Origin: a virus
Strand: one strand, 5' to 3'
Virus record (IMG/VR): IMGVR_UViG_3300031873_000039
Span: 1-25,428 of that record
DNA length: 25,428 nucleotides
The number at the start of each line of letters is the position of its first letter. Position 1 is the first letter of the stretch. The position numbers and the translations under genes are program-made. Positions 1,593 to 24,166 of this stretch are shown here, one piece after another. The notes below the pieces were generated by a model that saw nothing but the letters and a program-made list of their open reading frames with translations, was not told where the DNA came from and made no database searches.

Positions 1593-2246
1593 ATGGACCC
1601 TGAATTAGCAAGCAAACCTTTAACCGAGTACACCGAAAAGGAGTTGAAAGAGGCGGCCAAGTCTTTGGGTCTGGGCCTCACAGCGAACATGCCGCGCGAC
1701 AAAATGGTGCGCGCCGTTGAAATCGAAAAGAAGAAACGGCAACTCGCCATCGAGGACGAAGCGCGCGAGCAGTTAAAGAAAGAGCGAATGGAGGCCCTCG
1801 GCTTCCAGGCGACCGAAAAGCGATTCCCCAACTTCGAGGAAATCGCAATCTACGGGGGCACTTGGCAAGGCAAACAATACCCGCCTTCCAAGAAACTCAT
1901 CGTGGAGTTTTTCAATAACGATGATCCCGACAGTAGTTTCGGCTTCACTTCCGGGGGGCACTATTTTGAGTTATTTCAGGCAGACACCAACGGCGCACCT
2001 TTGTTGAATGTTATGCCTGAGTGCCTCGTCTCAAAGGCCAAAGAGTTTCAGAGCATTTCGCTGGCGCATCGTGGCAGTCCGATATACAAAGACGTTGAGG
2101 ACACCAAGACCGGCAGAATGGCATCTCGAATTGTCGGGTACAAGCCGCGTTTTAGGTTTTCTATCGTTGGCGATGCCCCCAAAGATGCTCCGTTCGGGTT
2201 GTATTCAGAAGAATCTAAGGAGACAGTAAAGGTTAGCCAACAGTAG
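1593..2246 (+). CDS. Phage protein with N-terminal SAP/HeH-like helical domain
   Basis: Protein of 217 residues with a strong ribosome binding site (AAGGAGAT at 1580-1587). Residues 6-45 (LTEYTEKELKEAAKSLGL... NMPRDKMVRAVE) look like a short helix-extended-loop-helix or Rho-N/SAP-type domain, a fold used by phage head-completion and nucleic-acid-associated proteins. It is followed by a charged helix to about residue 72, then a beta-rich domain. The last codons overlap, antisense, the 3' end of the HNH gene by 14 bases, so the original C-terminus may have been altered when that cassette arrived. Function is not recognised; head or neck association is inferred from location. Confidence 0.5.
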   Translation: MDPELASKPLTEYTEKELKEAAKSLGLGLTANMPRDKMVRAVEIEKKKRQLAIEDEAREQLKKERMEALGFQATEKRFPNFEEIAIYGGTWQGKQYPPSKKLIVEFFNNDDPDSSFGFTSGGHYFELFQADTNGAPLLNVMPECLVSKAKEFQSISLAHRGSPIYKDVEDTKTGRMASRIVGYKPRFRFSIVGDAPKDAPFGLYSEESKETVKVSQQ

Positions 2247-2751
2247 TGTGACATTGTTTGCAGACAGGAACGACATCAAGCCAATGTTGAGGCTCGTAAC
2301 CAAGATGATGATGGTATTCGATAGCAGGCTCTACACAATAAGAGCATTGTTGGTCTTTTGCTTTGGGCAACTGTCCCATTTTAATTGCAAAATGAACGCT
2401 TGCGCGGGCTTTGTTCTGCAAGGTATGGCAAATTCTATCTTTCTTGGCTGCAAGGCGATGCGACTCTTTGTATTTGGCGGACTTGGCTGCAAGGCGATGC
2501 GACTCTTTGTATTTGGCGGATTGATGATTGACTTTGCGATACGCCTTGCCTTTGGCGCTGTGTTCATAGCGCAGCATTGCCACTTTGCCTTTGTCGCTAT
2601 GGTTATATCGATAGCGAGTCTGCTTATTATTGCTGCAAGATTTGCAATAACAAGCAAGGCAATCTTTGCGGCTTCGGTCTTTGTAAAATTGAGAAGTTGG
2701 AAGATTAGTATTGCAGTGAGAACAGCGTTTTGTTTCAATTGGTTCAGGCAT
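2233..2751 (-). CDS. HNH endonuclease with N-terminal zinc finger (cassette A)
   Basis: Free-standing nuclease of 172 residues, transcribed against the structural genes. The chosen start (cat at 2749-2751) gives MPEPIETKRCSHC, matches the start of the paralogue at 16749, and has an AGGA site just upstream. Visible parts: a zinc-finger-like CxxC..CxxC (C10, C13, C36, C39); a basic linker of 13-17-residue repeats (about 47-103), two of which are identical because of a 39-bp duplication; and a C-terminal HNH core with C136xxC139, HHH at 147-149, W157, and CxxCH at 164-168. Such small HNH proteins in phages are usually homing endonucleases that cut genomes lacking them. The stop overlaps the end of the upstream structural gene. 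Specificity cannot be read from the sequence. Confidence 0.78.
   Translation of the reverse strand: MPEPIETKRCSHCNTNLPTSQFYKDRSRKDCLACYCKSCSNNKQTRYRYNHSDKGKVAMLRYEHSAKGKAYRKVNHQSAKYKESHRLAAKSAKYKESHRLAAKKDRICHTLQNKARASVHFAIKMGQLPKAKDQQCSYCVEPAIEYHHHLGYEPQHWLDVVPVCKQCHTTVG
2443..2520 (-). repeat. Perfect 39-bp tandem duplication inside HNH gene
   Basis: Copy 1 is 2443-2481 and copy 2 is 2482-2520; the two are identical and in frame. They encode a 13-residue unit (KSAKYKESHRLAA) twice in the basic linker. Perfect identity implies a recent slippage or unequal-recombination event. Confidence 0.95.
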
Positions 2752-2778
2752 AGCTTTTCCTTCATAAAAGTTATGTTC

Positions 2779-2813
2779 AAGCGAATCGCCCCGCCAATCG
2801 GGGCCTTTCGCTT
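2779..2813 (-). promoter_or_regulatory. Two-part stem-loop in the leader of HNH cassette A
   Basis: Outer stem AAGCGA (2779-2784) with TCGCTT (2808-2813); inner stem GCCCCG (2788-2793) with CGGGGC (2799-2804); three-base internal loops and a five-base terminal loop. It lies between the candidate minus-strand promoter and the nuclease start. Cassette B has the same layout with different bases (16778-16811). On the + strand it could also act as a weak terminator, since CTTTCTC follows. Role not established. Confidence 0.55.
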
Positions 2814-2818
2814 TCTCA

Positions 2819-2847
2819 ATTCTACCGCGTTCTCCTGCCAGAGTAAA
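2819..2847 (-). promoter_or_regulatory. Candidate sigma70-type promoter for HNH cassette A
   Basis: Read on the minus strand: TTTACT (2847-2842), a 17-base spacer, and TAGAAT (2824-2819). It sits immediately upstream of the stem-loop and overlaps the ribosome binding site of the + strand gene at 2859. Moderate match to consensus; supported by the equivalent, better promoter in cassette B. Confidence 0.4.
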
Positions 2848-2858
2848 GGAGTAATTTA

Positions 2859-5489
2859 ATGACAATCCCAAGTATCCGAAATACCAATGTTTTACCGCAA
2901 GATGTCGATACGTCGGAAGAGGCCGCAAGGACTTTCAACGACGTCTATCGCGTTTTGCGGGCGCACAATCTGGCCATATTGAAATTGAGCGGCAAGGGAG
3001 AAGATAAGAAAGGCGGTGCGAAAACGAGTCCCTTCAAGAAAGTTGCGACTGCGATAGTGATGTTGTGCCTGTTGTTCGGTTCGGTCGTTTTGGCCTCTGT
3101 GCCCTGGAATCTGGAATACGCGGGCAACGCCGACCTGATGGATGCGTTTATGCGCAATCCCCAGTTCAAGAACATGGAGATGGACACAATCACCCTTGCC
3201 AACGGCGCTACGATAGACAATGCAACGAATAACGCCTTTGAGTTCAACGAGAACAGCGAGGAATTGATATTGACCTTCGGCTCCAACGCCCTCGCTTGGT
3301 CAAGCGGCAGTGGTATTGTTCTGATGGACTTCGGGCTTGTCGTTCCCAAGAGCGACCAGTTCCTCTTTGACCCCGTAACGGGGGCAGTGGGAACCGTAGA
3401 AGGCACGGTCTTTTATGACAGTGATGACGACAATCTCTATGTGCGCACGACGGCAGGGTGGGTGGATTTGACAGATGCTGGTGGAACATTCGCCGGCGGC
3501 GCCATTTCTTCCGACATTACCTTTGCCGATGATGTTGACATCTTGCCCACTACGATTATCACCGACACTTGGGCAATCAAAGTCTATGATACCGATGCGC
3601 CTGGTTATCTCGACGTACTTCGTTGGACAAATGCGACAACTCCAACTATCGTATTTGGCAACAGCACTTCAAGTTTTGCTCTTGAAAGTACGGGAGTGGA
3701 CATTTCGACAGCAGGCGCAATTACAAATGCTGCAAGCATCACCGTATCAGGAACCGGCACGTTCGACCGAGTGGGGACTTCAACCCTGGATGCCACGGGA
3801 GCACTTACTCTTGGTAACGGCACTGCCGGAGTCACCATTGATTCTTCCGTCTGGGACATTAGCGCCGCAGGCGCGGTAACGGGTCTTACTTCAATTACCG
3901 GTCTTGGCGATCTGTCCATTACAGGCGATTTGACACTGGCCACTACCAAAGTAATCAAGGGAACTACGACCACAGCCAATACGATTGCCCTACAAGTCTA
4001 TGACAATGACACCGGTCCCGCCTACAAGAACGCGATCCTTTTAACCAATGGAAATACGCCCGCCATTGCAATCGGCGACGGCAATCCCACCGTAGCTATT
4101 GATTCTTCCGATTGGGACATCTCCACGGCGGGAGTAATGACCGGAATCGGGGCAATTACCTCTGATGGCCTGATTACAGGAACGTTAGGCACAACAATCA
4201 GCGGCGCAACGGTAAGTCTAAATGCCGCTTCCAACTTTGCCGTTACAATCGGCGGCGGCACAGGCGCTATGAACATCGGAACTGATGCGACTGCTCAAAC
4301 GATTAACATAGCCACTGGGGCCGGGGTCAAGGGAACGACTCTTGGCAGCACCAATACGACATCCAGCACGGCTATACAAGCCGGTTCAGGCGGTGTTAAT
4401 GTCAATGCGTCCAATGGAACCGTTGCAACCAATATCAATACCGGCAATTCCACCGGAACTGTCAGTGTCGGCGGAACCGGAGTAATGACTATCAATGTCG
4501 GGGCTGGTGGTACGGGAGCTAAAACTATCACCATCGGTGACAGTGCATCCACCGGTTCTATTGCGATTGCCGCCGGAACCGGCGACCTTGCTCTGTCTTC
4601 CGTCGATGATGTTACTCTGAACGGTGGTTCGGGCGGGTCTTTGATTAACATAGGCACTAACACTCACGGAAACGTATTTCACATCGGAGACGACGATACT
4701 ACCGCCGATACCTTTACAATAGGTTCCGGGAAAGATACTATTGCGATTGCGGGAATATCAGTCACCATAGGAAGCACCGGAACGACATCAGCTACTTTGT
4801 TGCAGTCAGGTTCGGGCGGCGTCGGATTCAATGTAAGTAACAATCAGCCCACGGATATCGGAACTGGAACCACCACCGGCACAGTTACAATCGGCGGAGC
4901 CGGAGTCCAGGCGATTGCGATAGGCAACGGCGCAGCGGCCAAAACAGTCACTCTTGGCAGTACTAACACGACTTCGACGACCAATATCCAGGCCGGGTCC
5001 GGCGGCATTAACATCACTGGAAATCTCGTGCGCACGTCGCAGCAGTATGTCCAGAGTATTGCTTATGCCAAACTGGGAGCAACGGGTGCGGGCTGGGTGA
5101 TAGGAGCAGCCGATAATACCTCGCTGGCGACTTTGCCCGCGTCACAGACCACCGAAACAATGGTGATACCCATTACAGTACCTCTAAAGGTCGGTTGGAT
5201 AATCACCGGTTTCACTATAAGCGGGCAGATTGAAAGTGCCGGCGGCGCAGTTGTTGTTAATGCCGATTTGAGAAAAGTAGTCGCTGTTGCCGACGATTGT
5301 ACCGACGGCAGCGTCGGTGCGATAACACAGATCTCAAAGACGGCGGACTATAAAATCGTCGATAGCAAAGCTGGATTGGCGGAAACCGTTACTGCCGCGA
5401 CCTCGTATTACATTCTTGTTACGGGAACCACGGCGGGAAGTACGGACATCGCAATCAACGGTGTAACTATTACCGTGTCTGAAATTTAA
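2859..5489 (+). CDS. Large repetitive fibre-like structural protein with internal hydrophobic leader
   Basis: Protein of 876 residues with an AAAGGAG site at 2845-2851. Residues 1-55 are a polar helical segment. Residues 60-81 (KKVATAIVMLCLLFGSVVLAS) form a signal-peptide-like or membrane segment with a VLAS|VP-type end, placed internally. From about 130 to 735 the protein is a low-complexity beta-repeat region rich in G, T, N, S and I, with recurring units such as IDSS.WDIS.AG..TG and LGSTNTTS.T.IQAGSGG (three copies), expected to form a fibrous beta-structure. The last 130 residues form a non-repetitive globular tip. This layout fits an adhesin or tail/head fibre. A strong terminator follows the gene. 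Exact virion location is unknown. Confidence 0.6.
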   Translation: MTIPSIRNTNVLPQDVDTSEEAARTFNDVYRVLRAHNLAILKLSGKGEDKKGGAKTSPFKKVATAIVMLCLLFGSVVLASVPWNLEYAGNADLMDAFMRNPQFKNMEMDTITLANGATIDNATNNAFEFNENSEELILTFGSNALAWSSGSGIVLMDFGLVVPKSDQFLFDPVTGAVGTVEGTVFYDSDDDNLYVRTTAGWVDLTDAGGTFAGGAISSDITFADDVDILPTTIITDTWAIKVYDTDAPGYLDVLRWTNATTPTIVFGNSTSSFALESTGVDISTAGAITNAASITVSGTGTFDRVGTSTLDATGALTLGNGTAGVTIDSSVWDISAAGAVTGLTSITGLGDLSITGDLTLATTKVIKGTTTTANTIALQVYDNDTGPAYKNAILLTNGNTPAIAIGDGNPTVAIDSSDWDISTAGVMTGIGAITSDGLITGTLGTTISGATVSLNAASNFAVTIGGGTGAMNIGTDATAQTINIATGAGVKGTTLGSTNTTSSTAIQAGSGGVNVNASNGTVATNINTGNSTGTVSVGGTGVMTINVGAGGTGAKTITIGDSASTGSIAIAAGTGDLALSSVDDVTLNGGSGGSLINIGTNTHGNVFHIGDDDTTADTFTIGSGKDTIAIAGISVTIGSTGTTSATLLQSGSGGVGFNVSNNQPTDIGTGTTTGTVTIGGAGVQAIAIGNGAAAKTVTLGSTNTTSTTNIQAGSGGINITGNLVRTSQQYVQSIAYAKLGATGAGWVIGAADNTSLATLPASQTTETMVIPITVPLKVGWIITGFTISGQIESAGGAVVVNADLRKVVAVADDCTDGSVGAITQISKTADYKIVDSKAGLAETVTAATSYYILVTGTTAGSTDIAINGVTITVSEI

Positions 5490-5519
5490 GAATGGATGAC
5501 AGGTGGTTTTCTTCTTTCG

Positions 5520-5557
5520 GAGGGTGGCGCAGGAGTCCTCCCGCCACCCTCTCTTTT
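5520..5557 (+). terminator. Intrinsic terminator after the 876-aa fibre gene
   Basis: Perfect 10-bp stem GAGGGTGGCG (5520-5529) with CGCCACCCTC (5542-5551), a 12-base loop, then TCTTTT (5552-5557). The next gene's ribosome binding site (AAAGGA, 5559-5564) begins directly after, so this may be a partial terminator that lowers expression of downstream genes. Confidence 0.75.
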
Positions 5558-5571
5558 GAAAGGAATTGCCG

Positions 5572-6588
5572 ATGGCGATTGCCTTGAGTACGTTGCGCAC
5601 ACGGTGGCGGGCCGTAACGGGCCGCTCGTCAACAAATGATATTGCGGACGCCGATGTAAATACCCAGCTCAACGAGTATATGCAGCTGCACCTGCCTTAT
5701 GAAGTCGATCTGGATTCCATTCAGGCGGACTGGACGCAGGAAACGGATGCGGCGGACGACGGGGAATATACACTCAGCCAGGCGGTTTTAGACGTAAATG
5801 AGCCAGTGATGTGCAATGCCTCTGAATTGAGAATCTACCGGGATAAGGAGCAGTTCTTCAGGGACTATCCGCTCTATGAGAACGAGGACTTCATCACGCC
5901 GCCCACACTGGTAATAGGAACGACGAGCGCGGCGAAGGTGAAGAACTCGGCCTTCAAGTACAGGATCGGGGATTATACCTACTCCAAAGCCACTGCCGAA
6001 ACAACAATGTCCGGCGATAACGTGCCCTCAAACCATTGGGGTGCGTGGCTCCTGGAGATAGACGCCGCTGGAACAATCACTCTTACCCCCGCAGCCGCAA
6101 ACAGTACGGGTTATGATTCGATGAAGGCGGCTCTTGAAGCCCTGACGATAAGCGGGGCCAGTTACGCGGTGATGGGGTATGTTCTAATATACACGACGGC
6201 CACCTTCATACCGGGCACGACGCTGTTCTCCGCCGCCGCCGTTACCGACTATTTCGCCGACGGCGACCCTGGAATGCGCAATACGCCCAACGCCTGCTGC
6301 GTGGCCGGGGGCAAGATGTGGGTGCGGCCTCTCCCGAACGACATATACCTTCTGCGGGCGGTGCTATCGATATCGCGGCTCACGGCCCTATCACAGGACA
6401 TTGATACTGTTCACGACGACGTTCTGGCCCAACTCATCGTCTATGGCTCGGCGATGCAGTACCTCTCCGAGAAGGGCGAGTCGGAGCGCCTTGCAGAATT
6501 GATGCCTGTTTACGACTGGCACAAGAGCCAAGTTGACCGAAAGAAACTCAAACAGCAACACAACCGACAATCCATAAGGTCATTCTAA
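5572..6588 (+). CDS. Head-tail adaptor/collar-like protein with inserted beta domain
   Basis: Protein of 338 residues. ATG 5572 is preferred over an upstream TTG at 5566 because AAAGGA at 5559-5564 is correctly spaced for it. The N-terminal 90 residues (LRTRWRAVTGRSS..DIADADVNTQLNEYMQ) and C-terminal 90 residues (PNDIYLLRAVLSISR.TAL..DI...DDVLAQLIVYGSAMQYL, then a long basic helix) match the pattern of phage adaptor proteins of the P22 gp4/collar type that connect portal and tail. Between them, at about 109-230, sits a separate domain (KVKNSAFKYRIGDYTYSKA..T...W.AW..EIDAAGTIT...YVLIYT....FIPGTT.F.A..VTDYF) recurring in phage virion proteins. The adaptor role is inference from pattern and position. 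Confidence 0.6.
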   Translation: MAIALSTLRTRWRAVTGRSSTNDIADADVNTQLNEYMQLHLPYEVDLDSIQADWTQETDAADDGEYTLSQAVLDVNEPVMCNASELRIYRDKEQFFRDYPLYENEDFITPPTLVIGTTSAAKVKNSAFKYRIGDYTYSKATAETTMSGDNVPSNHWGAWLLEIDAAGTITLTPAAANSTGYDSMKAALEALTISGASYAVMGYVLIYTTATFIPGTTLFSAAAVTDYFADGDPGMRNTPNACCVAGGKMWVRPLPNDIYLLRAVLSISRLTALSQDIDTVHDDVLAQLIVYGSAMQYLSEKGESERLAELMPVYDWHKSQVDRKKLKQQHNRQSIRSF

Positions 6589-6601
6589 GGAGCTAAACAA
6601 A

Positions 6602-7054
6602 ATGAAGCGCATAGCTTTGGGCATAGTTTTGGGTTTGTGCGTTACGGCATTGATGGCTGTTAGCAGCGTGGACAACAGGCATCTCGATATGAGATACCCG
6701 GTCGGCAAGTATTCGGCCACACAAATGAGCCTTGTGGCCGCCGACGCCAACGACGTTAGAACATTGATAGCCAACGTCAACGGCCTTATTGAGCGAATTG
6801 ACATTACCAGTAGCGACGCCAATACGACCGGCGCGACTTATGTGGTTACGCTTGAAGATGAAGATGGGATGGATTTGGCGTCATTCACGGCGATTTCTAT
6901 GGATTCGGCGATTGCTACAATGAAATTGGCGACCTCGGATTCCACAGATTTCAACGCGGTTCCGTGCGCAGGTGACATTGTAATCACAGTCAATCCGACC
7001 AGTGGTCCGACAGGCGTGACGTGGACCGTCGATATAAACATCTTCGTCGAGTGA
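6602..7054 (+). CDS. Small structural protein with Sec-signal-like N-terminus
   Basis: Protein of 150 residues behind an AAGGAG site at 6588-6593. Residues 1-22 (MKRIALGIVLGLCVTALMAVSS) have the charged start, hydrophobic core and small-residue end of a Sec signal peptide. The mature part begins with a RYPVGKY segment (about residue 35) and continues as a beta-rich domain (ATYVVTLEDEDG.D, VTWTVDINIFVE) that looks like a compact sandwich. No enzyme motif is visible. It lies in an unbroken run of virion-type genes, so a virion or surface role is likely. One of five leader-like segments in this cluster. Confidence 0.55.
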   Translation: MKRIALGIVLGLCVTALMAVSSVDNRHLDMRYPVGKYSATQMSLVAADANDVRTLIANVNGLIERIDITSSDANTTGATYVVTLEDEDGMDLASFTAISMDSAIATMKLATSDSTDFNAVPCAGDIVITVNPTSGPTGVTWTVDINIFVE

Positions 7055-7058
7055 CAAT

Positions 7059-7334
7059 ATGGCCGAGTACGAGGAATTTTTAATTGGCGACCTGAAAACG
7101 GGGTTGTTCGTCGGCAAAGAACCCTGGCTTGCCCCGCCGGATGCCTTCCCCACGCTCGAAAATGTTTCCGTTGACAAGGGGGTCTTGCGAAGGCGTCGAG
7201 GCCATGAAATCATCATACCAACAGGCCTTGCAAGCCTTCCGGTAACGGGAATCAACGCAATCGCTTATTCAGGATATATTGAAGTAATTGCCTGCACGAC
7301 GCGGCAGGTGTGGCACATCCACGCCGCGAGTTAA
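7059..7334 (+). CDS. Short paralogue of the nozzle protein N-terminus
   Basis: Protein of 91 residues that aligns along its whole length with the first roughly 90 residues of the next gene: FLIGDLKTGLFVGKEPWLA and PPDAFPTLENVSVDKGVLRRR match FLIGDMRTGLFLGQEPWKA and PPDAFPTLVNAYTDKGVLRKR, and both end near TRQ(V/A)(W/Y)H. The nucleotide sequences have diverged far more than the protein, so this is an old duplication under protein-level constraint or a stub left by recombination. It ends with TAA sharing an A with the ATG of the full-length gene (TAATG), implying coupled translation. Ribosome binding site is weak. Confidence 0.6.
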   Translation: MAEYEEFLIGDLKTGLFVGKEPWLAPPDAFPTLENVSVDKGVLRRRRGHEIIIPTGLASLPVTGINAIAYSGYIEVIACTTRQVWHIHAAS

Positions 7335-10237
7335 TGACAATGGTAGTTGCAGAAGAGAAATATGAGTCATTTTTGATAGGGGATATGCGGACGGGCCTAT
7401 TCCTGGGGCAAGAACCCTGGAAGGCTCCGCCCGACGCCTTCCCAACATTGGTGAACGCCTATACGGACAAGGGCGTTCTAAGAAAGCGCAAGGGGTATCT
7501 CCTTTTCGCAAAAATCGGTTGGAATCCGATTCAACTCATCACTCAAATCGTTCACGAAGGCTACAGTGAAATCATCGTCGTCGATACGCGCCAAGCGTAT
7601 CATCTCCTCTCGGCGGGTTATCAACTGACCTATATCAGTCAGAATGGCTACGTCTGGGGCGTGCCTCTCAATTACTATACCCGGAAGGGTCTTTCGCTCG
7701 ACCCGGGCGGCGTGGCGAGAACTTATGCGCCGGCCAGAACGGCACTGCCTTGTTTCGGGCATCCGTTCAAGGTGGGGGACGTTATCCGAATCGGAGGCAC
7801 AACGAACTATTCGAGCGCCTATTTTACACTGCAAACCGGAACGTCACAAACTGAACTGGTTATCAATAAGAGCAAAGTGACTGAGACATTCGACGGGTCG
7901 GAAACGGTGGTGCGGCGGCAAACAATGCTGAGCGGAATCGGTCGCATGTGCCAGGACAGAAATGGGAACATCTATCAGGGGGGCACAGGGTTCGCCATAC
8001 GAATACTCAAAACAGATGGAAGTATTGTTGATAATTTCTTCATACCGCCCGGAGGTTGTCCGGGGATTTATTTTGATGTGATTACAGGACTGAAAATATC
8101 GAAGGATGGAGAGCATTTATACGTTGCTACGAATCTTAATGGCATAAGTGGTTATATGCAATTCTATAAATTTCGATTATCGGATGGGGCGCAAATCTGG
8201 ACGCAAAGAGTAGGTAATACGGTAAGTTATAACATTGACATAGATGCCAATGATAATGTTTACATTCAGACGCAATTTCAGACAGACCCGCCGCTTGTCA
8301 ATCGAATTATGAAAGTGGCGGCCTCAGATGGAACAGTCAGTTCGATATATCTTTTCAACGATCAGCAGGGCTTGCCGTATGATGTTCACGTGGACGATTC
8401 ATTGGGCAAGGTGATTATTGGCGGCTACCAACTGCGCAACCCGCCTGCGGGCGATTTGTTTCCGATCAATATAGTCATTTGCGATCTTGACGGCGGCGAT
8501 CCGCACACATTGGCCCTTGGCGGTTTATATGTAGAATCGGGCGTAACCCGAACCGAGACTATAGGCACAGGGTGCATTACCAGCTACAAAGGTTATATTT
8601 ACGTCATTTTATACAGTCATACGCTAAGCAAAGACCAGGTGTACAAATTGGATTCCGACCTCAACATTATTGCCCAGGTTGATGGTCCGCCTTCGGGCAG
8701 AGGGATATTCGTCGATTTTTTGGGCCATATAGTTGTTGTCAATCAGGACTACGGGGACGCTTTCGGGACAGGCGGCGAGACGGATGTCTTCTGGTTCTAC
8801 GACGCCGACCTGAATTTCATCAGTGCGGCGGATAATTTTTACCGTGATATGCTTGATTTATGGGACGCCCCGGCGGGCGGACGTTATCAGAAAGGCAACG
8901 TTGAATTCTATCCCGGCATCTTTCAAACAGAAATTGAGACGATAGAAAACTGGACTTTAACGACGGTATATCCTATGAGCAGTTACAGCATAACTAATAT
9001 CACGCTGGGCGTTGATAAATTCACGGGCGGTGAGGACGACTATTTCTGGTATCAGGAATACCGGGGCCGACTCTATATGTGCAACGGCGTTGACCCCATT
9101 TACTATCACACGCCGAATTACACCCCCCCCTATACGATTCTGCCGATGGACACAGGGGCGGTGGTGATAGAGACGTGCCGGATGCTGTTTCAGTACAAGA
9201 ACCGATTGCTCATCGTCTCACCGAAGATCGGCGGCGTATGGTATCCTCAGCACGTCTATTACACTGATGTCAACTTGGACAACGTAGGAGTGAATAACTG
9301 GTTCAAGGCCCCCACAGATGATACCCCCGTCACCGGCGGGTACATCGACGAGGTCCCCGTCATCTTTTTCCGCAGCAGTATTTGGCATATCGTTTATACA
9401 GGCAACACGGATGCACCTTACACCTGGCAGAGGCGGACTTGTGATTTCGGGGCGGCGGCCAGAATGGGGACGGCGGTTATCAAAGAGAGTCTGGCGACTA
9501 TCGGCCTGAATCGACTCTTGAGCTACGACCGTTACCAACCGCGAGAGTATGACCTGAGCGCCCGGGGAATCCTTGACCAGATGAGCGCTACAAAGGTCGT
9601 CAATTCATTCGCCCATACCTTCAAAGACCGAGAGTTTATGGGAATATGCTTTACGCGCGTGGGCCAGTCAGATCACGACCGCATACTCCTCTACAACTAC
9701 CAGGAGGACAGTTTTCACATATCGACCATTCCAGCCCACTGTCTGTTTTCGATAAACGGACCCTGGCTGCCCGATGGTGTTAGTCCGGGCAATTTCTACT
9801 TTCCCATCCGCGATCAGGACTATCGGAAGTACGAATTTGCCGGCACGAAAGATGGGCGGATTCTCTGGCTGCACCAGGGGTATCTCGATGACGGCGTGAA
9901 TATCACAACCGATATTCGTTCCGGCCAGTTCAATCCGTTTCAAAAAGAGGGGTTGAGAGCAAAATTCGGATGGCTCAAGATTCTTATCAGCGCGGCCGTT
10001 GGAGAAGGACTTGAAGTGAGTTTGTATAAAGACCATTCCGACACGGCCTTCAAAACAATCCAGGTTTGGAGCAACGGCACAACGAATCACTGGAAAACTA
10101 TCTGGGCCGACGGTGAAGTGGCCGATTTCTTTCGCGTGAAAATTGTACATATCTACCAAGCGGGCGTGTTGGGCGGCGATTTTGCGATACACGGATTCCT
10201 TTTGGGAATGAAAAGGGCGGGCAAAATTGGCCATTGA
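7334..10237 (+). CDS. Tail nozzle/tubular-like protein with propeller-like insert
   Basis: Protein of 967 residues. The start is ATG 7334, overlapping the previous stop (TAATG); ATG 7340 is an alternative. Residues about 10-55 carry GLF.G.EPW.APPDAFP.L.NAY.DKGVLRKRKGY, the entry pattern of podovirus nozzle or tail-tubular proteins. From about 205 to 490 there are repeated blades of the type GN.Y.GG...I.....DG and D.NDNVYIQTQ, suggesting an inserted beta-propeller (NHL-like). From about 565 the sequence returns to nozzle-like segments (YRGRLYMCNGVDPIYYHTP, YKNRLLIVSPK). The C-terminus is beta-rich (SGQFNPF.KEGLRAKFGWLKI). It would form the lower tail tube. The assignment is pattern-based; the propeller is inference. 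Confidence 0.55.
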   Translation: MTMVVAEEKYESFLIGDMRTGLFLGQEPWKAPPDAFPTLVNAYTDKGVLRKRKGYLLFAKIGWNPIQLITQIVHEGYSEIIVVDTRQAYHLLSAGYQLTYISQNGYVWGVPLNYYTRKGLSLDPGGVARTYAPARTALPCFGHPFKVGDVIRIGGTTNYSSAYFTLQTGTSQTELVINKSKVTETFDGSETVVRRQTMLSGIGRMCQDRNGNIYQGGTGFAIRILKTDGSIVDNFFIPPGGCPGIYFDVITGLKISKDGEHLYVATNLNGISGYMQFYKFRLSDGAQIWTQRVGNTVSYNIDIDANDNVYIQTQFQTDPPLVNRIMKVAASDGTVSSIYLFNDQQGLPYDVHVDDSLGKVIIGGYQLRNPPAGDLFPINIVICDLDGGDPHTLALGGLYVESGVTRTETIGTGCITSYKGYIYVILYSHTLSKDQVYKLDSDLNIIAQVDGPPSGRGIFVDFLGHIVVVNQDYGDAFGTGGETDVFWFYDADLNFISAADNFYRDMLDLWDAPAGGRYQKGNVEFYPGIFQTEIETIENWTLTTVYPMSSYSITNITLGVDKFTGGEDDYFWYQEYRGRLYMCNGVDPIYYHTPNYTPPYTILPMDTGAVVIETCRMLFQYKNRLLIVSPKIGGVWYPQHVYYTDVNLDNVGVNNWFKAPTDDTPVTGGYIDEVPVIFFRSSIWHIVYTGNTDAPYTWQRRTCDFGAAARMGTAVIKESLATIGLNRLLSYDRYQPREYDLSARGILDQMSATKVVNSFAHTFKDREFMGICFTRVGQSDHDRILLYNYQEDSFHISTIPAHCLFSINGPWLPDGVSPGNFYFPIRDQDYRKYEFAGTKDGRILWLHQGYLDDGVNITTDIRSGQFNPFQKEGLRAKFGWLKILISAAVGEGLEVSLYKDHSDTAFKTIQVWSNGTTNHWKTIWADGEVADFFRVKIVHIYQAGVLGGDFAIHGFLLGMKRAGKIGH

Positions 10238-10243
10238 TGAAAT

Positions 10244-10579
10244 ATGACTATCGAATTAATAAATCAACCATCCGGCATATTACCGGTGATTAACCGCGAG
10301 CGCGTAAAAGAGCGTGGAACGGCGGAAATCACAGATTATCTTCTGCTGCTTATTAAGGCACTCCAGGAAGATTTGCTCAGAAATTTCACTGCAATAATGA
10401 ACGTCCAGCTTTCAATGATGAATGTCGGGGTGTTCAACTTTCAACTGCCTGATGTGAATGGTGTTTATCCTGAAGGAGCTTGGCGACTGATGTATGTAAG
10501 TGGCGGGATCGAATTGCAGAAGAAAGTAGCCGGAGTTTGGACAACAGGTACGGGAGCAGTTGCCCGTTGGGAGTATTGA
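10244..10579 (+). CDS. Small structural protein, fibre-partner candidate
   Basis: Protein of 111 residues, not recognised. Residues 1-60 are helical (ITDYLLLLIKALQEDLLRNFTAIMNVQ, amphipathic), and the remainder is a short beta region ending WTTGTGAVARWEY. Its stop overlaps the next start as TGATG, so both proteins are probably made together. The helical N-terminus is reminiscent of the first 45 residues of the 876-aa fibre protein, where a leader segment follows in the same chain. A joint attachment role is a guess. Confidence 0.45.
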   Translation: MTIELINQPSGILPVINRERVKERGTAEITDYLLLLIKALQEDLLRNFTAIMNVQLSMMNVGVFNFQLPDVNGVYPEGAWRLMYVSGGIELQKKVAGVWTTGTGAVARWEY

Positions 10580-11283
10580 TGCGAAAAGCGATTGTCATTG
10601 TGTTATTGTTTTCAAGCACCGCTTTCGGTTTGTACACATTTCGCGGCCCCTTACGTAACACCAAAATCGGAAGTTGGACGGCCTCTCGGCTTGCCTATAT
10701 CAATGATTACAATGACGTGAACAGTGTCTTACTCCTCTCGGCCTGGATTGCAGGCACAGACAATCAGATATACCGCACGGACGACGGGGACGGCTCGTTG
10801 ACTCTCAATCTGCCACAGGACATAAATACGGTATCAACACCTCAGTTCTTCGGGGTGATTTTCACCGACCAGGATGTGGCCCCAAATACCCCAGGCGAAT
10901 TGGTCTATGATAATACAGTGACGGGATTGGCCGACGGCGCGCTCGCATGGTATGATGATGATGAAGTTCGGTACTTGGTCGATTTGAACAGCCCACCGAG
11001 CAACGATGATTATGTCGTAGCTTACGATGCTAATACTGACGCCTTCTATATGAAGGTCGATAGCGGCGGCATTGCCTGGACGACACCGGTACCGGGTAAC
11101 CCGGATGACCCTGGTGATGCGGGTGATGTTGCCTATGATACCAGTTATTTGTACGTCTGTGTGGCTGGTAATACGTGGAAGCGCGCCGCCCTATCCACCT
11201 GGGCGGGCGTATATGATGTTCTGTTGCTCGAAACGGGCGATCAGCTTCTCCTTGAAACCGGCGATGCAATGCTATTGGAGTAA
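10579..11283 (+). CDS. Structural protein with signal-like N-terminus and LLLETGD tail
   Basis: Protein of 234 residues. ATG 10579 overlaps the previous TGA; it is chosen because it directly begins a signal-like leader (MRKAIVIVLLFSSTAFG, then LYT). The body has a fibre-type segment (PQFFGVIFTDQDV.PNTPGELVYDNT) and a compact beta section with two CxxxxNTW-like strands near 205-215. The end is a short repeat, VLLLETGDQLLLETGDAMLLE, a C-terminal pattern seen on many phage tail proteins, probably an assembly or tip strand. A tail or fibre component is likely; no enzymatic motif is seen. Confidence 0.5.
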   Translation: MRKAIVIVLLFSSTAFGLYTFRGPLRNTKIGSWTASRLAYINDYNDVNSVLLLSAWIAGTDNQIYRTDDGDGSLTLNLPQDINTVSTPQFFGVIFTDQDVAPNTPGELVYDNTVTGLADGALAWYDDDEVRYLVDLNSPPSNDDYVVAYDANTDAFYMKVDSGGIAWTTPVPGNPDDPGDAGDVAYDTSYLYVCVAGNTWKRAALSTWAGVYDVLLLETGDQLLLETGDAMLLE

Positions 11284-11289
11284 CGAAAT

Positions 11290-14097
11290 ATGAAACGTTT
11301 ATTGATAGTTTTGTTGTTATGCAACTCGGTACTGGCAGTCGATACGAAATTGACGGCGTTAACGGAACTTACAACCCCGGATGTCAATGACCTCCTCTAC
11401 ATAGTCGATGACCCCGCCGGTTCGCCAATATCAAAAAAGATTACGAGGAACAATCTGATTGCAAATTGGATTGGAACGACCACTATTACTACGCTTGGCA
11501 CGATAGCAAGCGGGACGTGGAACGGAACGATAATCGGGACGGCTTACGGCGGCACTGGCGCGGCCGCCCTAACCAATCTGATAGCCTTAACAACTCATAC
11601 TACCGGCAATTATGTGGCGTCCGTAGCCGAAGGATTTGCCATTGATGGAGGCGCAGCAGGTTCCGAAGGAGCAACACTCACCATTGCCTTTGACCCCACG
11701 GAGATTACAGGCGGAACTACCTGGGACGATGGCGGAGAGGCCAGCGTGATATGGTCGTGGAATCTGACCGCCGGAGACCCATGTATAACCTTTGGCAATG
11801 GTGTTGTGAATGTCTCAACCGGTGCTTTGCAGGTGGGCGGGTTGGCCGTTCTTACCGCAAGTCCTTTCGGGTCAACGATTGATGATACAGAGATGACTAC
11901 AGAGGATTTCGGCGACTTCACAAACGCGGGCGGAGAAGATGGTTTTTCGCTGGATTCTGATGTTGTGGGTGACAGTGAGATTGACTATGCCAATGTAACC
12001 CTGACCGATTTTGACTACCAGACGGCCTGGCGAGTCTTCTACTCAGACGCCAACGGTGATGTGACGGAACTTGCCTTCGGGGCCTCTGGGGAATATCTCA
12101 AGAGCAACGGCGCCGCCGCCGCGCCGACTTGGGCAACGCCAGGGGGCAGCGGCGATATGCTCAAATCGGTCTATGACGTCCTCGAAGATGATTTCGTTGA
12201 CGGGAATGATACCCCTTATGCGGCCTCCTGGGACACCAGTATCGACGCCCCCTCTATGAACGCCGTCTATGATAAAATAGAGGCCCTTCCGGGCGGCCAC
12301 GCTGCCGTAACCGTGGTAGATAGCCAATCTGTGAATCTCACGCTTTCAACGCAGCAGATAACCGCAGACGTGAATGATAAAGATTACGGCGATGTTGTAG
12401 TCTCTTCAACGGGTTCTGTATGGGCGGTGGATAATGATTCGCACGCTCATACGACCACGACAGTCTCTGGATTGGACATTTCGGCGGATACGAACCTTGC
12501 GGTCGGTGCGCTGCTGACCTTGACAGATGATACTGTGGACGCGAACACTGCCGCCGTAGCCAATGGTGATACGAAGCATTTGGCGACCGGCGACCAGATA
12601 TATGATTTTGTCACGGGTTTAGGCTATCTCTCCACGACAATCGTATTCACGAACCCCGCGACAGATAATCTCTCAGTGGGTGACGCCGAAACATTAAATT
12701 CGATAACGACCGGAGATGAAAACCTTATTCTTGGTGCCGATGCAGGAACGGCCATAACGACAGGATCGGGGAATGTTCTGATAGGAGTGCGTACTGGAGA
12801 TACGATTGTTGATGGTACGAACAACTGGGCGCTCGGGACTAACGCTATGGGCAATGCCATAACGCCGTCCTGGAGCGTCGGAATAGGATTTGAAGCCCTC
12901 GAAGGTTCATGGGGGGGAACGAACGACTTTGTCGGTTGTATCGCAATAGGCGCATCGGCAGGCAAGAATACCGACCGGGCAAACTACCAAATTTTTATAG
13001 GAGAGGAAGCGGGTTTGGGCAGTGACATTGATGGAATAGGTTCTATTGGAATTGGATACTGTGCCCTTTACAATTTGACTGACGGCAATCGCAGCGTGGC
13101 ATTAGGATACAAAGCGGGATACAGTGCAACGACCGCCGATGACTCTGTATATCTTGGGCCATCAGCAGGTTATCGGCAAACTACACTACACGACATTCTT
13201 GTAATTGATAATCAGGACAGGGGGGCGGCGGCCACAGAGATAACCGATTCCCTCATTTACGGGGTGTTTAACGCGACGGCGGCCAGTCAGACCCTGAACC
13301 TGAACGCGGCGGTTCTGTCTCGTTATGCTCTTACATCCGGCGGTACGATTACCAGTTCCGGTACTTTTGATGTTACCGGGGCAGCCGGGATGGTGTTTGG
13401 TTCGGCTGACGTTACGGGATTCACATTTACAAGCGATGGTACGGGCAATGCTGAGTTTTCATTTCCGGCGGACATTGTAGGCGATGCCGACATAGATTGG
13501 GGAAGTGGGGCCGGGCAAATCGACCTGGCCGATCTTCCAGGCGGTATTGCCGGAGCAAGTGTCTTCGATTTCGGCGGGGCGACCTCGGTAGAGTTACCTA
13601 ATGGGGTGGACCCCGATCTGACCGTACTCGGTCAAGTCGCTATTGACACGGATGGGGCGAATGAAACGAACGATGTGACTTTGCGGACTACCGATGCGGG
13701 CGGCGATACGCAGTACGCATTGGCGCAGGTCATTAAGACTTTTCAGGCCACGATTATCAAACCGAATGATTTGGCGGATGCTACGCGGGATTTGTGCCCG
13801 ATATGGTCGAATGAAAGCGGAATGATTTTCACTGTTACGAAGATAGAGGCCTGGAGTTCTACGGATAATACGACCTTGACTCTTATGGTGCGAGATTCCG
13901 TTGGCGCTGGTGCGGCTACCGTCGATGCAGTTGAAATCGCCTCGGATGGTACGGGTATGTACTACACGACCGAGACAACAATCACAGCCGCGACCATTGC
14001 AGCCAATTATCTCGTGTATATCGACTTCGACGATACAGACGATCCGGGCTGGGTCAAGGTAAGTATTTCAGGGTATTTCAATGCTAATGTAGATTAG
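11290..14097 (+). CDS. Tail fibre/adhesin with YadA-like head repeats and signal-like N-terminus
   Basis: Protein of 935 residues with GGAG at 11277-11280. Residues 1-16 (MKRLLIVLLLCNSVLA|VDT) form a typical Sec-like leader. Next comes DTKLTALTELTTPDVNDLLYIVD followed by GT(I/W)..GTW.GT.I...YGGTG (about 70-90), a classical phage tail-fibre motif. A beta-rich shaft follows. Residues about 476-634 contain YadA-type repeats (SVGIGFEAL, GCIAIGASAG, SIGIGYCAL, RSVALGYKAGY, YLGPSAGY), which form left-handed trimeric beta-rolls in adhesins. The final 130 residues are a separate beta domain likely to be the receptor-binding tip. Trimeric fibre is the best reading; receptor unknown. Confidence 0.65.
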   Translation: MKRLLIVLLLCNSVLAVDTKLTALTELTTPDVNDLLYIVDDPAGSPISKKITRNNLIANWIGTTTITTLGTIASGTWNGTIIGTAYGGTGAAALTNLIALTTHTTGNYVASVAEGFAIDGGAAGSEGATLTIAFDPTEITGGTTWDDGGEASVIWSWNLTAGDPCITFGNGVVNVSTGALQVGGLAVLTASPFGSTIDDTEMTTEDFGDFTNAGGEDGFSLDSDVVGDSEIDYANVTLTDFDYQTAWRVFYSDANGDVTELAFGASGEYLKSNGAAAAPTWATPGGSGDMLKSVYDVLEDDFVDGNDTPYAASWDTSIDAPSMNAVYDKIEALPGGHAAVTVVDSQSVNLTLSTQQITADVNDKDYGDVVVSSTGSVWAVDNDSHAHTTTTVSGLDISADTNLAVGALLTLTDDTVDANTAAVANGDTKHLATGDQIYDFVTGLGYLSTTIVFTNPATDNLSVGDAETLNSITTGDENLILGADAGTAITTGSGNVLIGVRTGDTIVDGTNNWALGTNAMGNAITPSWSVGIGFEALEGSWGGTNDFVGCIAIGASAGKNTDRANYQIFIGEEAGLGSDIDGIGSIGIGYCALYNLTDGNRSVALGYKAGYSATTADDSVYLGPSAGYRQTTLHDILVIDNQDRGAAATEITDSLIYGVFNATAASQTLNLNAAVLSRYALTSGGTITSSGTFDVTGAAGMVFGSADVTGFTFTSDGTGNAEFSFPADIVGDADIDWGSGAGQIDLADLPGGIAGASVFDFGGATSVELPNGVDPDLTVLGQVAIDTDGANETNDVTLRTTDAGGDTQYALAQVIKTFQATIIKPNDLADATRDLCPIWSNESGMIFTVTKIEAWSSTDNTTLTLMVRDSVGAGAATVDAVEIASDGTGMYYTTETTITAATIAANYLVYIDFDDTDDPGWVKVSISGYFNANVD

Positions 14098-14110
14098 TGA
14101 AGGGGTAATA

Positions 14111-14743
14111 ATGAAACATCTTAAAACGTATTGGCGATTATGGTTGCTGGCGGGTCTGTGCGGCATCTCGCTTATTATACTTCTTTCTCCCGCAAAGGCG
14201 GCTGTTGTAAAAGGCACAAATTGTGGATTTGTTACAGTTGCCCCGACTGCTGACCCAGCCGACGGAGATACGGTTGCAGATGCTTTTGCACACGCAATGA
14301 AAGACCTTGTGCCTGTCGGTGCAACTAAAATTGTGGAAATGGGTTGGTGGTGTGATAATGATACAGAAGCAGCCAACTTTGAGGTTGGTCTGTACAGTGA
14401 TGACTCTGGAAATACTTTACCTCTAAATAGACTTTTTGTAGCGGCCACTAATGCTAAAGGAACGACTGCCGGTTGGAAGAGAGTGACGGTTGATTGGGAT
14501 ATTAGCGGATTGGGGAATGGAACGGCAGTTTGGTTAGCCCGTGAACTTGACAATACAGCAACTGCTACAAACACTAATTACACAGCTGCAGGGACTGGAA
14601 ATCACGCAAGAAGGTCTAATGCAACTACACTTCCTGACCCTTGGCTAAACTCTGATTCAGGGACACGGCTTTACGCTATTTATGCCGTGTGGGAGGCTGC
14701 ACCGGCGGCGGGTGGTCAAGTAATCATAGTGAATTGTGAATGA
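14111..14743 (+). CDS. Secreted-type structural protein of unknown function
   Basis: Protein of 210 residues with AAGGGG ahead of the ATG. Residues 1-31 (K.LKTYWRLWLLAGLCGISLIILLSPAKA|AVV) form a textbook signal peptide with an AKA cleavage-type end. The mature part is a single beta-rich domain with paired tryptophans and cysteines (MGWWCDNDTEA, GWKRVTVDWDISGLGNGT, TRLYAIYAVWEA) resembling a carbohydrate- or ligand-binding sandwich; I cannot name a family. The codon choice is more AT-rich than in flanking genes, hinting at separate acquisition. It directly follows the long fibre, so it may be an accessory fibre tip or a secreted factor. Confidence 0.5.
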   Translation: MKHLKTYWRLWLLAGLCGISLIILLSPAKAAVVKGTNCGFVTVAPTADPADGDTVADAFAHAMKDLVPVGATKIVEMGWWCDNDTEAANFEVGLYSDDSGNTLPLNRLFVAATNAKGTTAGWKRVTVDWDISGLGNGTAVWLARELDNTATATNTNYTAAGTGNHARRSNATTLPDPWLNSDSGTRLYAIYAVWEAAPAAGGQVIIVNCE

Positions 14744-15316: not shown

Positions 15317-16292
15317 ACTTATCGAGCGGGATGGGTTTTGGTGCGATCCTACAAATCCATTCGCCCGATTTGGCGGCGGCGGTACAACCGTAGAGCAGGC
15401 CCCGACACACACTCAGCCCTGGGGCCAGCTTGAACAAGCCTTAGCCGGTTTAGCCGTTCCGGGCATCGGCGGGATGGAACTGGCGCAGCCGGAGTATTAT
15501 GGCGGCGAACGCTTGGCTGGAATGGACCCGAACGCAATGACCACTGCTCAAAATGCTATGTCGGGAATGGCCGGCGGGATGATGGACTTCTACGACCCCA
15601 TATATGACGCCGCAATGAACCGTTGGAACGAAGAAATCGCCCCATCGGTTATGGAGCGATTCGCAGGGATGGGCAACGCCTTGAGCGGCGGCGCGGCCTC
15701 GGCACTTTCGAGAGAGGGCGAGAATCTTATGACGGACATTTCCGCCCAGGTAGCGCCTTTGTATCAAGAGGCGATTTTCAACATGCCGCAACTGGCGTCT
15801 TGGGAGCAAGGGGCCCGTCAGCAGCCGCTCGATATTGAACGCGAAATTTGGCAGGAACAGCAACCCTATATGAACCCCTACGCCACTTATGGAAAGGACA
15901 TTCTGTCCGGCGGCGGGGCCAACGCTATGGAGAACTACGCCGAACCCCAAACCGACTGGGGCCAAATCGGCGGCACTTTAGGGGCGGCTGCAATAATGAA
16001 ATCCGACAGGCGGCTCAAAGAGAATATCAAACCCATAGAGAACGCCCTTGCTAAAATCAAGGATTTACACGGCTACACATTCACTTGGAAGAGCACTGGG
16101 GCGCGTGATGCCGGGATTATCGCTCAAGAAGTCGAAAAAGTATTGCCGGAGGCCGTCGAAGAGCTGGACGGTTTCAAAGCGATCCATTTGCCTGCCCTTG
16201 TAGGATTACTTGTTGAGGCCGTTAATGAACTTGCTCAAAAGATAGAACATTTCGATGGAGTCTCTTATGACACTTGCGGCACACCGGGATAA
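15285..16292 (+). CDS. Internal-virion-like protein with C-terminal S74 chaperone domain
   Basis: Protein of 335 residues. ATG 15285 is chosen for its excellent AAAGGAGG site (15271-15278); the frame extends upstream but only inside the previous gene. Residues 30-230 are Gly/Met/Ala/Gln-rich and helical (PIYDAAMNRWNEEIAPSVME, NALSGGAASALSREGENLM), typical of phage internal or ejection proteins. Residues 239-320 are an intramolecular chaperone domain of peptidase family S74: S240-D-R-R-L-K245 (Ser and Lys of the self-cleavage site at the family's five-residue spacing), GY.F.WK, GIIAQEVEKVLPEAV, and a closing helix LVGLLVEAVNELAQKI. Cleavage before S240 would free the first 239 residues. The last residues run into the antisense HNH cassette, so the tail of the protein is probably not original. 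Confidence 0.7.
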   Translation: MTWPRLKLRSELIERDGFWCDPTNPFARFGGGGTTVEQAPTHTQPWGQLEQALAGLAVPGIGGMELAQPEYYGGERLAGMDPNAMTTAQNAMSGMAGGMMDFYDPIYDAAMNRWNEEIAPSVMERFAGMGNALSGGAASALSREGENLMTDISAQVAPLYQEAIFNMPQLASWEQGARQQPLDIEREIWQEQQPYMNPYATYGKDILSGGGANAMENYAEPQTDWGQIGGTLGAAAIMKSDRRLKENIKPIENALAKIKDLHGYTFTWKSTGARDAGIIAQEVEKVLPEAVEELDGFKAIHLPALVGLLVEAVNELAQKIEHFDGVSYDTCGTPG

Positions 16293-16749
16293 CATCGAGC
16301 CAATGTTCAGGCGCGTAATCCAGATAGTGGTGGTAATCTTGGGCCTGCTTGCGACATTCGTGGCATTTCAATTTGCAGGTTGGCAGCAGGCGCCCAGTGG
16401 CAATGGCGTGAGCAACTGCATTTTTGGCCTTCCATCTCTCTGGGTACTGGCTTTTGTATTCGCTTTCGTAACAGTGAGCAGTTTCTTTGCCATTTTGGGT
16501 TTGCCGGTATTTGCGGGCGCTCCGGTGCTGAGATTCTCTTCCTTTTGTGGTTTGTCCATATTTTCTATTGGCCCTGTGGTGAACTTGTTTGCCGGTTGGC
16601 GTTTGCTGATAGGCTTTATTGGCGGCAATATGGCAGGTTTTACAGCAACTCCGCAAGCCATCAGGATTTTTTCGATGTTTATGAAACTCGGAAATCGGTT
16701 TGAGTTGCTTGCATTTCGAGCAAGTTTTTGTTTGAATTGCGTCAGGCAT
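16222..16749 (-). CDS. HNH endonuclease with N-terminal zinc finger (cassette B)
   Basis: Paralogue of the HNH protein at 2233-2751, 175 residues, on the minus strand. The start (cat at 16747-16749) has AAAGGAAAG just upstream. Zinc-finger cysteines C10, C13, C36, C39 match the first copy exactly in position. The linker (47-100) has three 17-residue repeats of the form Y.QT..GK...HR..RK. The C-terminal core has C129xxC132, HH at 140-141, W150, and CRKCH at 157-161. The last ten residues (after KRLH) are a run-on antisense to the S74 gene, which it overlaps by 71 bases. Expected role: homing-type DNA cleavage in co-infecting genomes. The target site is unknown. Confidence 0.8.
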   Translation of the reverse strand: MPDAIQTKTCSKCKQLKPISEFHKHRKNPDGLRSCCKTCHIAANKAYQQTPTGKQVHHRANRKYGQTTKGRESQHRSARKYRQTQNGKETAHCYESEYKSQYPERWKAKNAVAHAIATGRLLPTCKLKCHECRKQAQDYHHYLDYAPEHWLDVIPVCRKCHKRLHRNVLSFEQVH

Positions 16750-16777
16750 ATTCTTTCCTTTGCAAAGAGTATGTTCA

Positions 16778-16811
16778 AAGCCGTTTGCGGGTTACGCCCC
16801 GCAGATGGCTT
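16778..16811 (-). promoter_or_regulatory. Two-part stem-loop in the leader of HNH cassette B
   Basis: Outer stem AAGCC (16778-16782) with GGCTT (16807-16811); inner stem GCGGG (16787-16791) with CCCGC (16798-16802); four-base internal loops and six-base terminal loop. The layout copies cassette A with base changes on both sides of the stems. On the + strand TTGTTTTATT follows, so it may double as a terminator for structural-gene transcripts. Confidence 0.55.
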
Positions 16812-16816
16812 GTTTT

Positions 16817-16844
16817 ATTGTAGCAATGGAATAATGAGAGTCAA
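16817..16844 (-). promoter_or_regulatory. Sigma70-type promoter for HNH cassette B
   Basis: Minus strand: TTGACT (16844-16839), 16-base spacer, TACAAT (16822-16817), with TG one base before the -10 (extended -10). Close to consensus at both boxes. It lies about 70 bases upstream of the nuclease start and directly before the stem-loop, so the nuclease can be expressed independently of the late operon. Confidence 0.55.
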
Positions 16845-16865
16845 TTCTTTTTGAAGGGTTATACA

Positions 16866-23763: not shown

Positions 23764-23949
23764 ATGAACTGGGCGGCAATCATAGTTTCCGTCGCCAAGT
23801 TGATATTGGTGTTCATATCGACCTGGACTGAACGAGACAAAGACCGGCGCGAACGGAAAGCCCGGGCGTTTAAGGACCTGACAAATGGAATCAAAGAAAA
23901 GGATGTTGCGAAGATTACTGCTGCCTACGATTATGCTCGCCGTGCTTAG
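23764..23949 (+). CDS. Short single-pass membrane protein, i-spanin candidate
   Basis: Protein of 61 residues: an N-terminal membrane helix (residues 3-20, WAAIIVSVAKLILVFIST) followed by a strongly charged helix (TERDKDRRERKARAFKDLTNGIKEKDVAKI). This is the layout of a Rz-type inner-membrane spanin, but it is shorter than usual. Its last 65 bases overlap, in another frame, the start of the lipoprotein gene, as Rz/Rz1 pairs often do. It begins three bases after the holin stop. Spanin assignment rests on topology and overlap only. Confidence 0.45.
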   Translation: MNWAAIIVSVAKLILVFISTWTERDKDRRERKARAFKDLTNGIKEKDVAKITAAYDYARRA

Positions 23950-24166
23950 TCTTGCCGGATGCTCTCGGCACGGCTGGTACGTCCGAAGTCCCCTTACAAG
24001 CGACCCGCCCGTAGTAGTTCATCCGATTCAGCCATCCGATATTTTCCCTATTGCGGCGGGCGATCTCATATCCCCCCAAAGTGGTACTCCTATAGTAGTA
24101 CAAAAGGGCGGATTCTTTGTCAGCGACTACTATATGAACGAGATAATGCGCGCCCGCGTGGAATAA
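23885..24166 (+). CDS. Lipoprotein, o-spanin (Rz1-like) candidate
   Basis: Protein of 93 residues with a charged start, hydrophobic core and lipobox LSLAG|C (cysteine at residue 26), so the mature protein is likely lipid-anchored. The mature part is proline-containing and short (SPLTSDPPVVVHPIQPSDIFP) and ends with YYMNEIMRARVE. ATG 23885 has AAGGA a few bases upstream; ATG 23903 behind AAAAGG is an alternative that gives an equally good lipoprotein. The gene begins inside the preceding membrane-protein gene in a different frame. Together they would bridge inner and outer membranes in the last step of lysis. Confidence 0.55.
   Translation: MESKKRMLRRLLLPTIMLAVLSLAGCSRHGWYVRSPLTSDPPVVVHPIQPSDIFPIAAGDLISPQSGTPIVVQKGGFFVSDYYMNEIMRARVE

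Follow-up and report, generated by a model that had tools for sequence, protein, structure and literature searches.

Predicted Sec-type leaders on fiber-type proteins in the late gene block of an uncultured podophage-type virus

The stretch of DNA analyzed here, referred to as the window, is a 25,428-base fragment from an IMG/VR record that begins, at its left end, partway through the gene for a major head protein (PHROG 1357). The region upstream is supplied by contig L003, which matches the window at 99.6% protein-level identity over this gene and encodes the terminase (PHROG 2), a P22-like portal (PF16510), and the full head protein. Reading rightward, the window begins with a 340-aa protein and a 975-aa virion protein (PHROG 3287), continues with the fiber-type genes, and ends with an S74-chaperone protein, a 1593-aa protein with a weak DarB-like match, and a small lysis block. 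The window is thus the late gene block of an uncultured podophage-type virus. Our first guess from the ORF sizes had been an F-type conjugation cluster, but no transfer family matched, whereas head and tail families did. The features discussed below are listed in Table 1, together with a lipoprotein-type leader in the lysis block, which is an ordinary kind of phage leader.

Table 1. Leaders, mature regions, and neighboring features of the window and of related phages
Feature	Position	Strand	Basis or remark
Conserved 56-aa N-terminus ahead of the hydrophobic segment, 876-aa protein	2859..3026	+	76% identical to the 1077-aa L033 protein
Internal hydrophobic segment, residues 60-81, 876-aa protein	3036..3101	+	Possible internal signal or signal anchor
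Repetitive fiber-type body, 876-aa protein	3102..5489	+	Sequence and L033 alignment
Sec-type leader, 150-aa protein, MKRIALGIVLGLCVTALMA	6602..6658	+	Score 4.58; AAGGAG upstream
Mature part, 150-aa protein	6659..7054	+	Predicted beta-sandwich
Sec-type leader, 234-aa fiber-type protein, MRKAIVIVLLFSSTAFG	10579..10629	+	Score 4.89; GGGAG upstream
Mature 234-aa fiber-type protein	10630..11283	+	Residues 75-164 common to vir555 and L039 fibers
Sec-type leader, 935-aa fiber, MKRLLIVLLLCNSVLA, then VDTKL	11290..11337	+	Score 4.71; GGAG upstream
Mature 935-aa fiber	11338..14097	+	N-domain DTKL...YIVDDPAG; repeats like tail-spike PHROG 4636
Leader or signal anchor, 210-aa protein, MKHLKTYWRLWLLAGLCGISLIILLSPAKA	14111..14200	+	Score 4.41; AGGGG upstream
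Mature 210-aa protein	14201..14743	+	Structure model unusable, pLDDT 38
Lipoprotein-type leader (LSLAGC), 93-aa lysis-block protein	23885..23962	+	Sequence; score 4.36
HNH-type genes, window	2233-2928 and 16222-16749	-	Motif HWLDVIPLCRKCH
HNH-type genes, L033	about 5400-6000 and 11000-11650	-	Motif HWLDVIPLCRKCH
HNH-type gene, L004	about 6600-7300	-	Motif HWLDVIPLCRKCH

Several smaller features of the region were also observed. A 91-aa gene at window positions 7059-7334 duplicates the N-terminus of the 975-aa virion protein encoded by the next gene, at 52% identity, and is either a truncated duplicate or a separate small paralogue; its counterpart in the sister phage L033 lies at 12155. Between its portal and scaffold-region genes, L003 encodes a 105-aa protein (8418-8735) that has an N-terminal leader or anchor, MRRIFVTVILCIVSLVLG, and no family match. 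Minus-strand HNH-type genes sharing one motif occupy intergenic sites that differ among related phages, and the copy present in L004 is absent at the same place in the near-identical L003. Antisense ORFs at 2248-2859 and 16255-16854 look like membrane proteins, which is an artifact of these minus-strand genes.

An earlier note on this DNA had pointed to five Sec-leader-like segments in the structural cluster, and all five hydrophobic segments are present at the positions that it gave. Four of them stand at the N-termini of genes 6602, 10579, 11290, and 14111, and each has a positive n-region, an uncharged hydrophobic core, and small residues at -3 and -1. The fifth lies at residues 60-81 of the 876-aa fiber-type protein encoded at 2859. 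Genes 6602, 11290, and 14111 start at the ATG listed in Table 1, and AAGGAG serves as the ribosome-binding site of both 6602 and 2859. The ATG at 10579 lies inside a longer mechanical ORF (10480) and is the likely start, given the GGGAG upstream and a TGATG overlap with the previous stop. Cleavage is predicted after residue 16 or 19 of the 6602 protein and after residue 15 or 17 of the 10579 protein. All four N-terminal leaders lack a twin arginine (RR), the mark of a Tat leader, as well as a lipobox ending in Cys at +1. A Leu-Cys pair occurs in four of the five hydrophobic cores (GLCVT in 6602, LLCNS in 11290, GLCGI in 14111, and MLCLL in the 876-aa segment), although these cores do not align at the DNA level. 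A shared origin of the window leaders found no support in the DNA-level comparison.

The mature regions differ in what can be said of their families. The 10579 protein matches a tail protein family (PHROG 17312, 3.8e-08) and a tail fiber family (PHROG 38537, 3.4e-04), and the 11290 protein matches PHROG 4636; these were the only tail fiber or tail protein matches, with none for the 2859, 6602, and 14111 proteins. The 6602 protein, the 14111 protein, and the body of the 876-aa protein matched no family. A beta-sandwich is predicted for the mature 6602 protein by a low-confidence AlphaFold2 model (pLDDT 60) with unspecific structural matches. No cell-wall-cleaving domain was found in the leader proteins.

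Leaders were scored with a home-made, rule-based score of the n-, h-, and c-regions, which recovers seven of eight known E. coli leaders. The four N-terminal window leaders score 4.4-4.9. Among genes of at least 90 aa in seven control phages (T7, P22, LUZ24, epsilon15, ctfne034, vir515, and vir526), leaders occur in 3 of 285, namely two Rz-type spanins and one 143-aa protein of vir515; in the other loci examined, they occur in 5 of 352 genes, three of these in vir555. The window has four among about 17 genes (Fisher p = 2e-4 against the controls), and window proteins shuffled with their composition kept yield leaders at a rate of 0.0014 per gene. The vir515 protein (BK063672, locus L046; 13287-13718), whose leader is MKKLFMAILGAALLVGLLALPMASGA, is encoded directly after the major head protein, a position comparable to that of gene 25132 of vir555, which is described below. 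These rates speak against another explanation, in which ordinary cytoplasmic fibers have hydrophobic N-termini by chance or had their starts called wrongly. Still, the score alone can mislead, since the strong-scoring ORF 16255, which was discarded, proved to lie antisense to an HNH-type gene on the minus strand.

Next, we compared the window with its sister phage. L033 spans the left part of the cluster, and the comparison is confined to the 6602 and 876-aa proteins. Between the 6602 protein and its L033 orthologue, the mature parts are 84% identical and the leaders 22% identical, yet lysines, a hydrophobic core, and small residues at the end are all retained in the L033 leader. In the 876-aa protein, identity is 76% before the hydrophobic segment, 19% within it (residues 62-82), and 64% after it, with the hydrophobicity kept at mean Kyte-Doolittle values of 2.62 and 1.92. 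Signal sequences evolve in this manner, keeping the property while the sequence changes. That the property is kept at such divergence suggests function, as a functionless segment would be expected to lose it. Retention of the property across about 80% sequence change is also difficult to reconcile with chance N-termini.

The L033 comparison bears as well on the kind of signal that the 876-aa protein may carry. The segment is where the earlier note had placed it, but it is not an N-terminal leader, and the L033 counterpart, at about residues 60-77, is likewise internal. It may act as a signal anchor rather than as a leader that is cleaved off, and the 876-aa protein may be a membrane-spanning fiber with a cytoplasmic end. 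One could extend this to the whole set and read the segments as uncleaved membrane anchors that hold fibers in the inner membrane, perhaps until it collapses, as with signal-anchor-release (SAR) endolysins, or that dock tails there. The position of the 876-aa segment behind a conserved, polar 56-aa end in both phages is consistent with this, as is the long hydrophobic core of the 14111 protein, in which residues 3-25 are modeled as one helix (model pLDDT 38), and phages are known to use SAR domains (PMC6116005). However, 11290 and 10579 have short cores of about 10-13 residues with V-L-A or A-F-G at the end, as is typical of cleaved leaders. As an account of the set, uncleaved anchoring seems unlikely to us.

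The start of the 935-aa fiber is informative in another way. Relatives of its N-terminal domain (DTKLTALTELTTP...LLYIVDDPAG) occur in several phage groups. The leaderless homologues (L011-L027) start M-A-DTKL or similar, and a leader is impossible in these related contigs because the reading frame is closed by a stop codon no more than about three codons upstream. Annotated homologues in Pelagibacter phage HTVC008M and Methylophilales phage Melnitz-3 start M-A-D. The 11290 leader has 16 residues, ends in V-L-A, and is followed by VDTKL, so the predicted cleavage would recreate the start of the leaderless relatives after Met removal. A wrong start call is hard to maintain here, as there is no alternative start between the leader and the DTKL domain. 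Tblastn searches found no leader-bearing 11290 homologues. One match to a degenerate DNA pattern for leader-bearing DTKL fibers, in L032, was due to chance, and a profile search of 399 genomes from the phylum of L032 gave one match, a false one to an apparently epimerase-like protein.

Leader-bearing fiber blocks were also observed in two other phages, both reached through mature fiber sequence and not through leaders. A stretch of the mature 10579 protein well away from the leader (residues 75-164) is 48% identical to a fiber of Caudoviricetes sp. vir555, and a profile built from the 10579 and vir555 fiber sequences found L039. In vir555, the matching fiber and its neighbors (38538, 40848, 41583, and 43154) have leaders, as does a 170-aa protein encoded between head and tail genes (25132). 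L039 has five consecutive leader genes, of 1965, 258, 608, 337, and 485 aa, two of them encoding right-handed beta-helix proteins, and no leaders on its other genes of at least 90 aa; the chance of five contiguous leaders among its 29 genes is 2e-4. The head genes of the three phages are unrelated, with a P22-like portal in the window phage (from L003), a T7-like adaptor in vir555, and an SU10-like portal and capsid in L039. Fiber modules may have passed between these phages, so that the three cases count as independent for the heads but possibly not for the fibers; given the common fiber domain, the leader blocks themselves may not be independent. The recorded host of vir555 (BK063671, locus L038) is Methanomicrobiales. 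This archaeal host looks doubtful, given a D-Ala-D-Ala carboxypeptidase-type endolysin and T7-like head and tail genes.

The recurrence of leaders on consecutive genes of vir555 and L039 is a further point against chance. Together, the L033 comparison, the control rates, and the starts of the 11290 homologues largely refute chance N-termini or wrong starts, which we regard as very improbable. The export-signal character that the earlier note had proposed, and its being out of the ordinary for fibers of tailed phages, appear to hold up, judged by the three-part build of the leaders, the contrast with the control phages and leaderless homologues, the property kept in L033, and the recurring leader-bearing fiber blocks. 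Comparison of sequences thus supports Sec-type leaders on fiber-type proteins, apparently selected as such where L033 allows a test, that is, in the 6602 and 876-aa proteins.

What becomes of the exported proteins is a separate question. The main rival to their joining virions is that they are free secreted or surface adhesins, lectins, or glycan-cleaving proteins that act on the surface or matrix of the infected cell, where they might, for example, mask receptors, loosen exopolysaccharide before release, or weaken the surface layer. Two of the L039 leader proteins are right-handed beta-helix proteins, which fits this role. Furthermore, vir555 retains a leaderless gp17-type short fiber (37057) for its tail, and its leader proteins therefore need not be virion parts. 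There are precedents for secretion in a biofilm enzyme of bacterial origin that has a tailspike fold and a Tat signal (PMC7949094) and in the signal-peptide SH-like proteins of archaeal head-tailed viruses (PMC11576556). Against free adhesins, and in favor of a virion fate, are the location of the leader genes within the virion gene block and the retention in 11290 of the domain that forms the start of ordinary phage fibers. Gene 6602 of the window and gene 25132 of vir555, moreover, sit among head and tail genes. We consider free secretion a real possibility, at less than even odds.

Our preferred explanation is that the tail-fiber-type genes 10579 and 11290, the neighboring gene 14111, and gene 6602, which encodes a small protein of the structural region, carry functional, cleavable Sec signal peptides, with Sec export before lysis; we give this a probability of about 0.6. 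Late in infection, the leader proteins would pass SecYEG and lose their leaders to signal peptidase I, and the mature proteins would take up their fold beyond the cytoplasm, at the same time as DNA is packaged into heads within it. The conserved 56-aa end of the 876-aa protein would stay cytoplasmic with its fiber across the membrane, either cleaved or anchored. The exported fibers would then meet and join tails when the envelope breaks at lysis, a step that we favor but that is unproven. Counting against this explanation, we know of no tailed phage that adds fibers outside the cytoplasm.

In general, the window proteins share features with several known systems. The fibers and spikes of podophages, such as T7 gp17, P22 gp9, and epsilon15 gp20, have a similar late-block position, and tail PHROG matches like those of 10579 and 11290. 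These fibers are assembled in the cytoplasm, and unlike the window genes, they have no leader by our score. Trimeric autotransporter adhesins (YadA type) have a Sec leader followed by a repetitive fiber body, as do the window fibers, but carry a C-terminal membrane anchor; neither a YadA-type nor another membrane-anchor family was found in 11290 using Pfam and NCBIfam. Sec-exported endolysins (Lys44 of fOg44) and SAR endolysins are likewise phage proteins with an N-terminal Sec signal used before lysis (PMC6116005), although these are cell-wall enzymes, whereas the window proteins are fiber-type. Viruses of sheathed archaea are head-tailed and encode structural-type proteins with signal peptides, the SH-like proteins, which are proposed to disturb the host sheath (PMC11576556). 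These are amyloid-like sheath mimics of 159-288 aa with a two-sheet core, whereas the window set includes long fibers; the 14111 (210 aa) and 10579 (234 aa) proteins fall in this range, a likeness of length only. Pantoea WceF, a phage tailspike-like trimer and biofilm enzyme, also has an export signal (PMC7949094), but this is a Tat signal on a bacterial gene, while the window leaders are Sec-type and lie in a phage late block. None of the nearest precedents (SAR and Sec endolysins, SH-like proteins, and WceF) is a Sec-leadered fiber block in a tailed phage.

Tailed phages are generally assembled in the cytoplasm, and export is a matter of lysis proteins and membrane morons. A partial survey of the literature, taken without subscription journals or preprints, turned up no report of Sec leaders on tailed-phage fiber clusters. 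It is conceivable, though somewhat doubtful, that in several podophage lineages part of the receptor-binding fibers is Sec-exported and fitted to cytoplasmically assembled heads and tails only at lysis, or through a membrane-spanning fiber that docks tails to the inner membrane. Blocks of Sec-leadered fiber genes in phages with unrelated heads would imply either that fiber assembly has a second branch, located outside the cytoplasm, or that a class of adhesins secreted by phages is encoded in the midst of virion genes. Each of these outcomes would alter how receptor-binding proteins are predicted from genomes.
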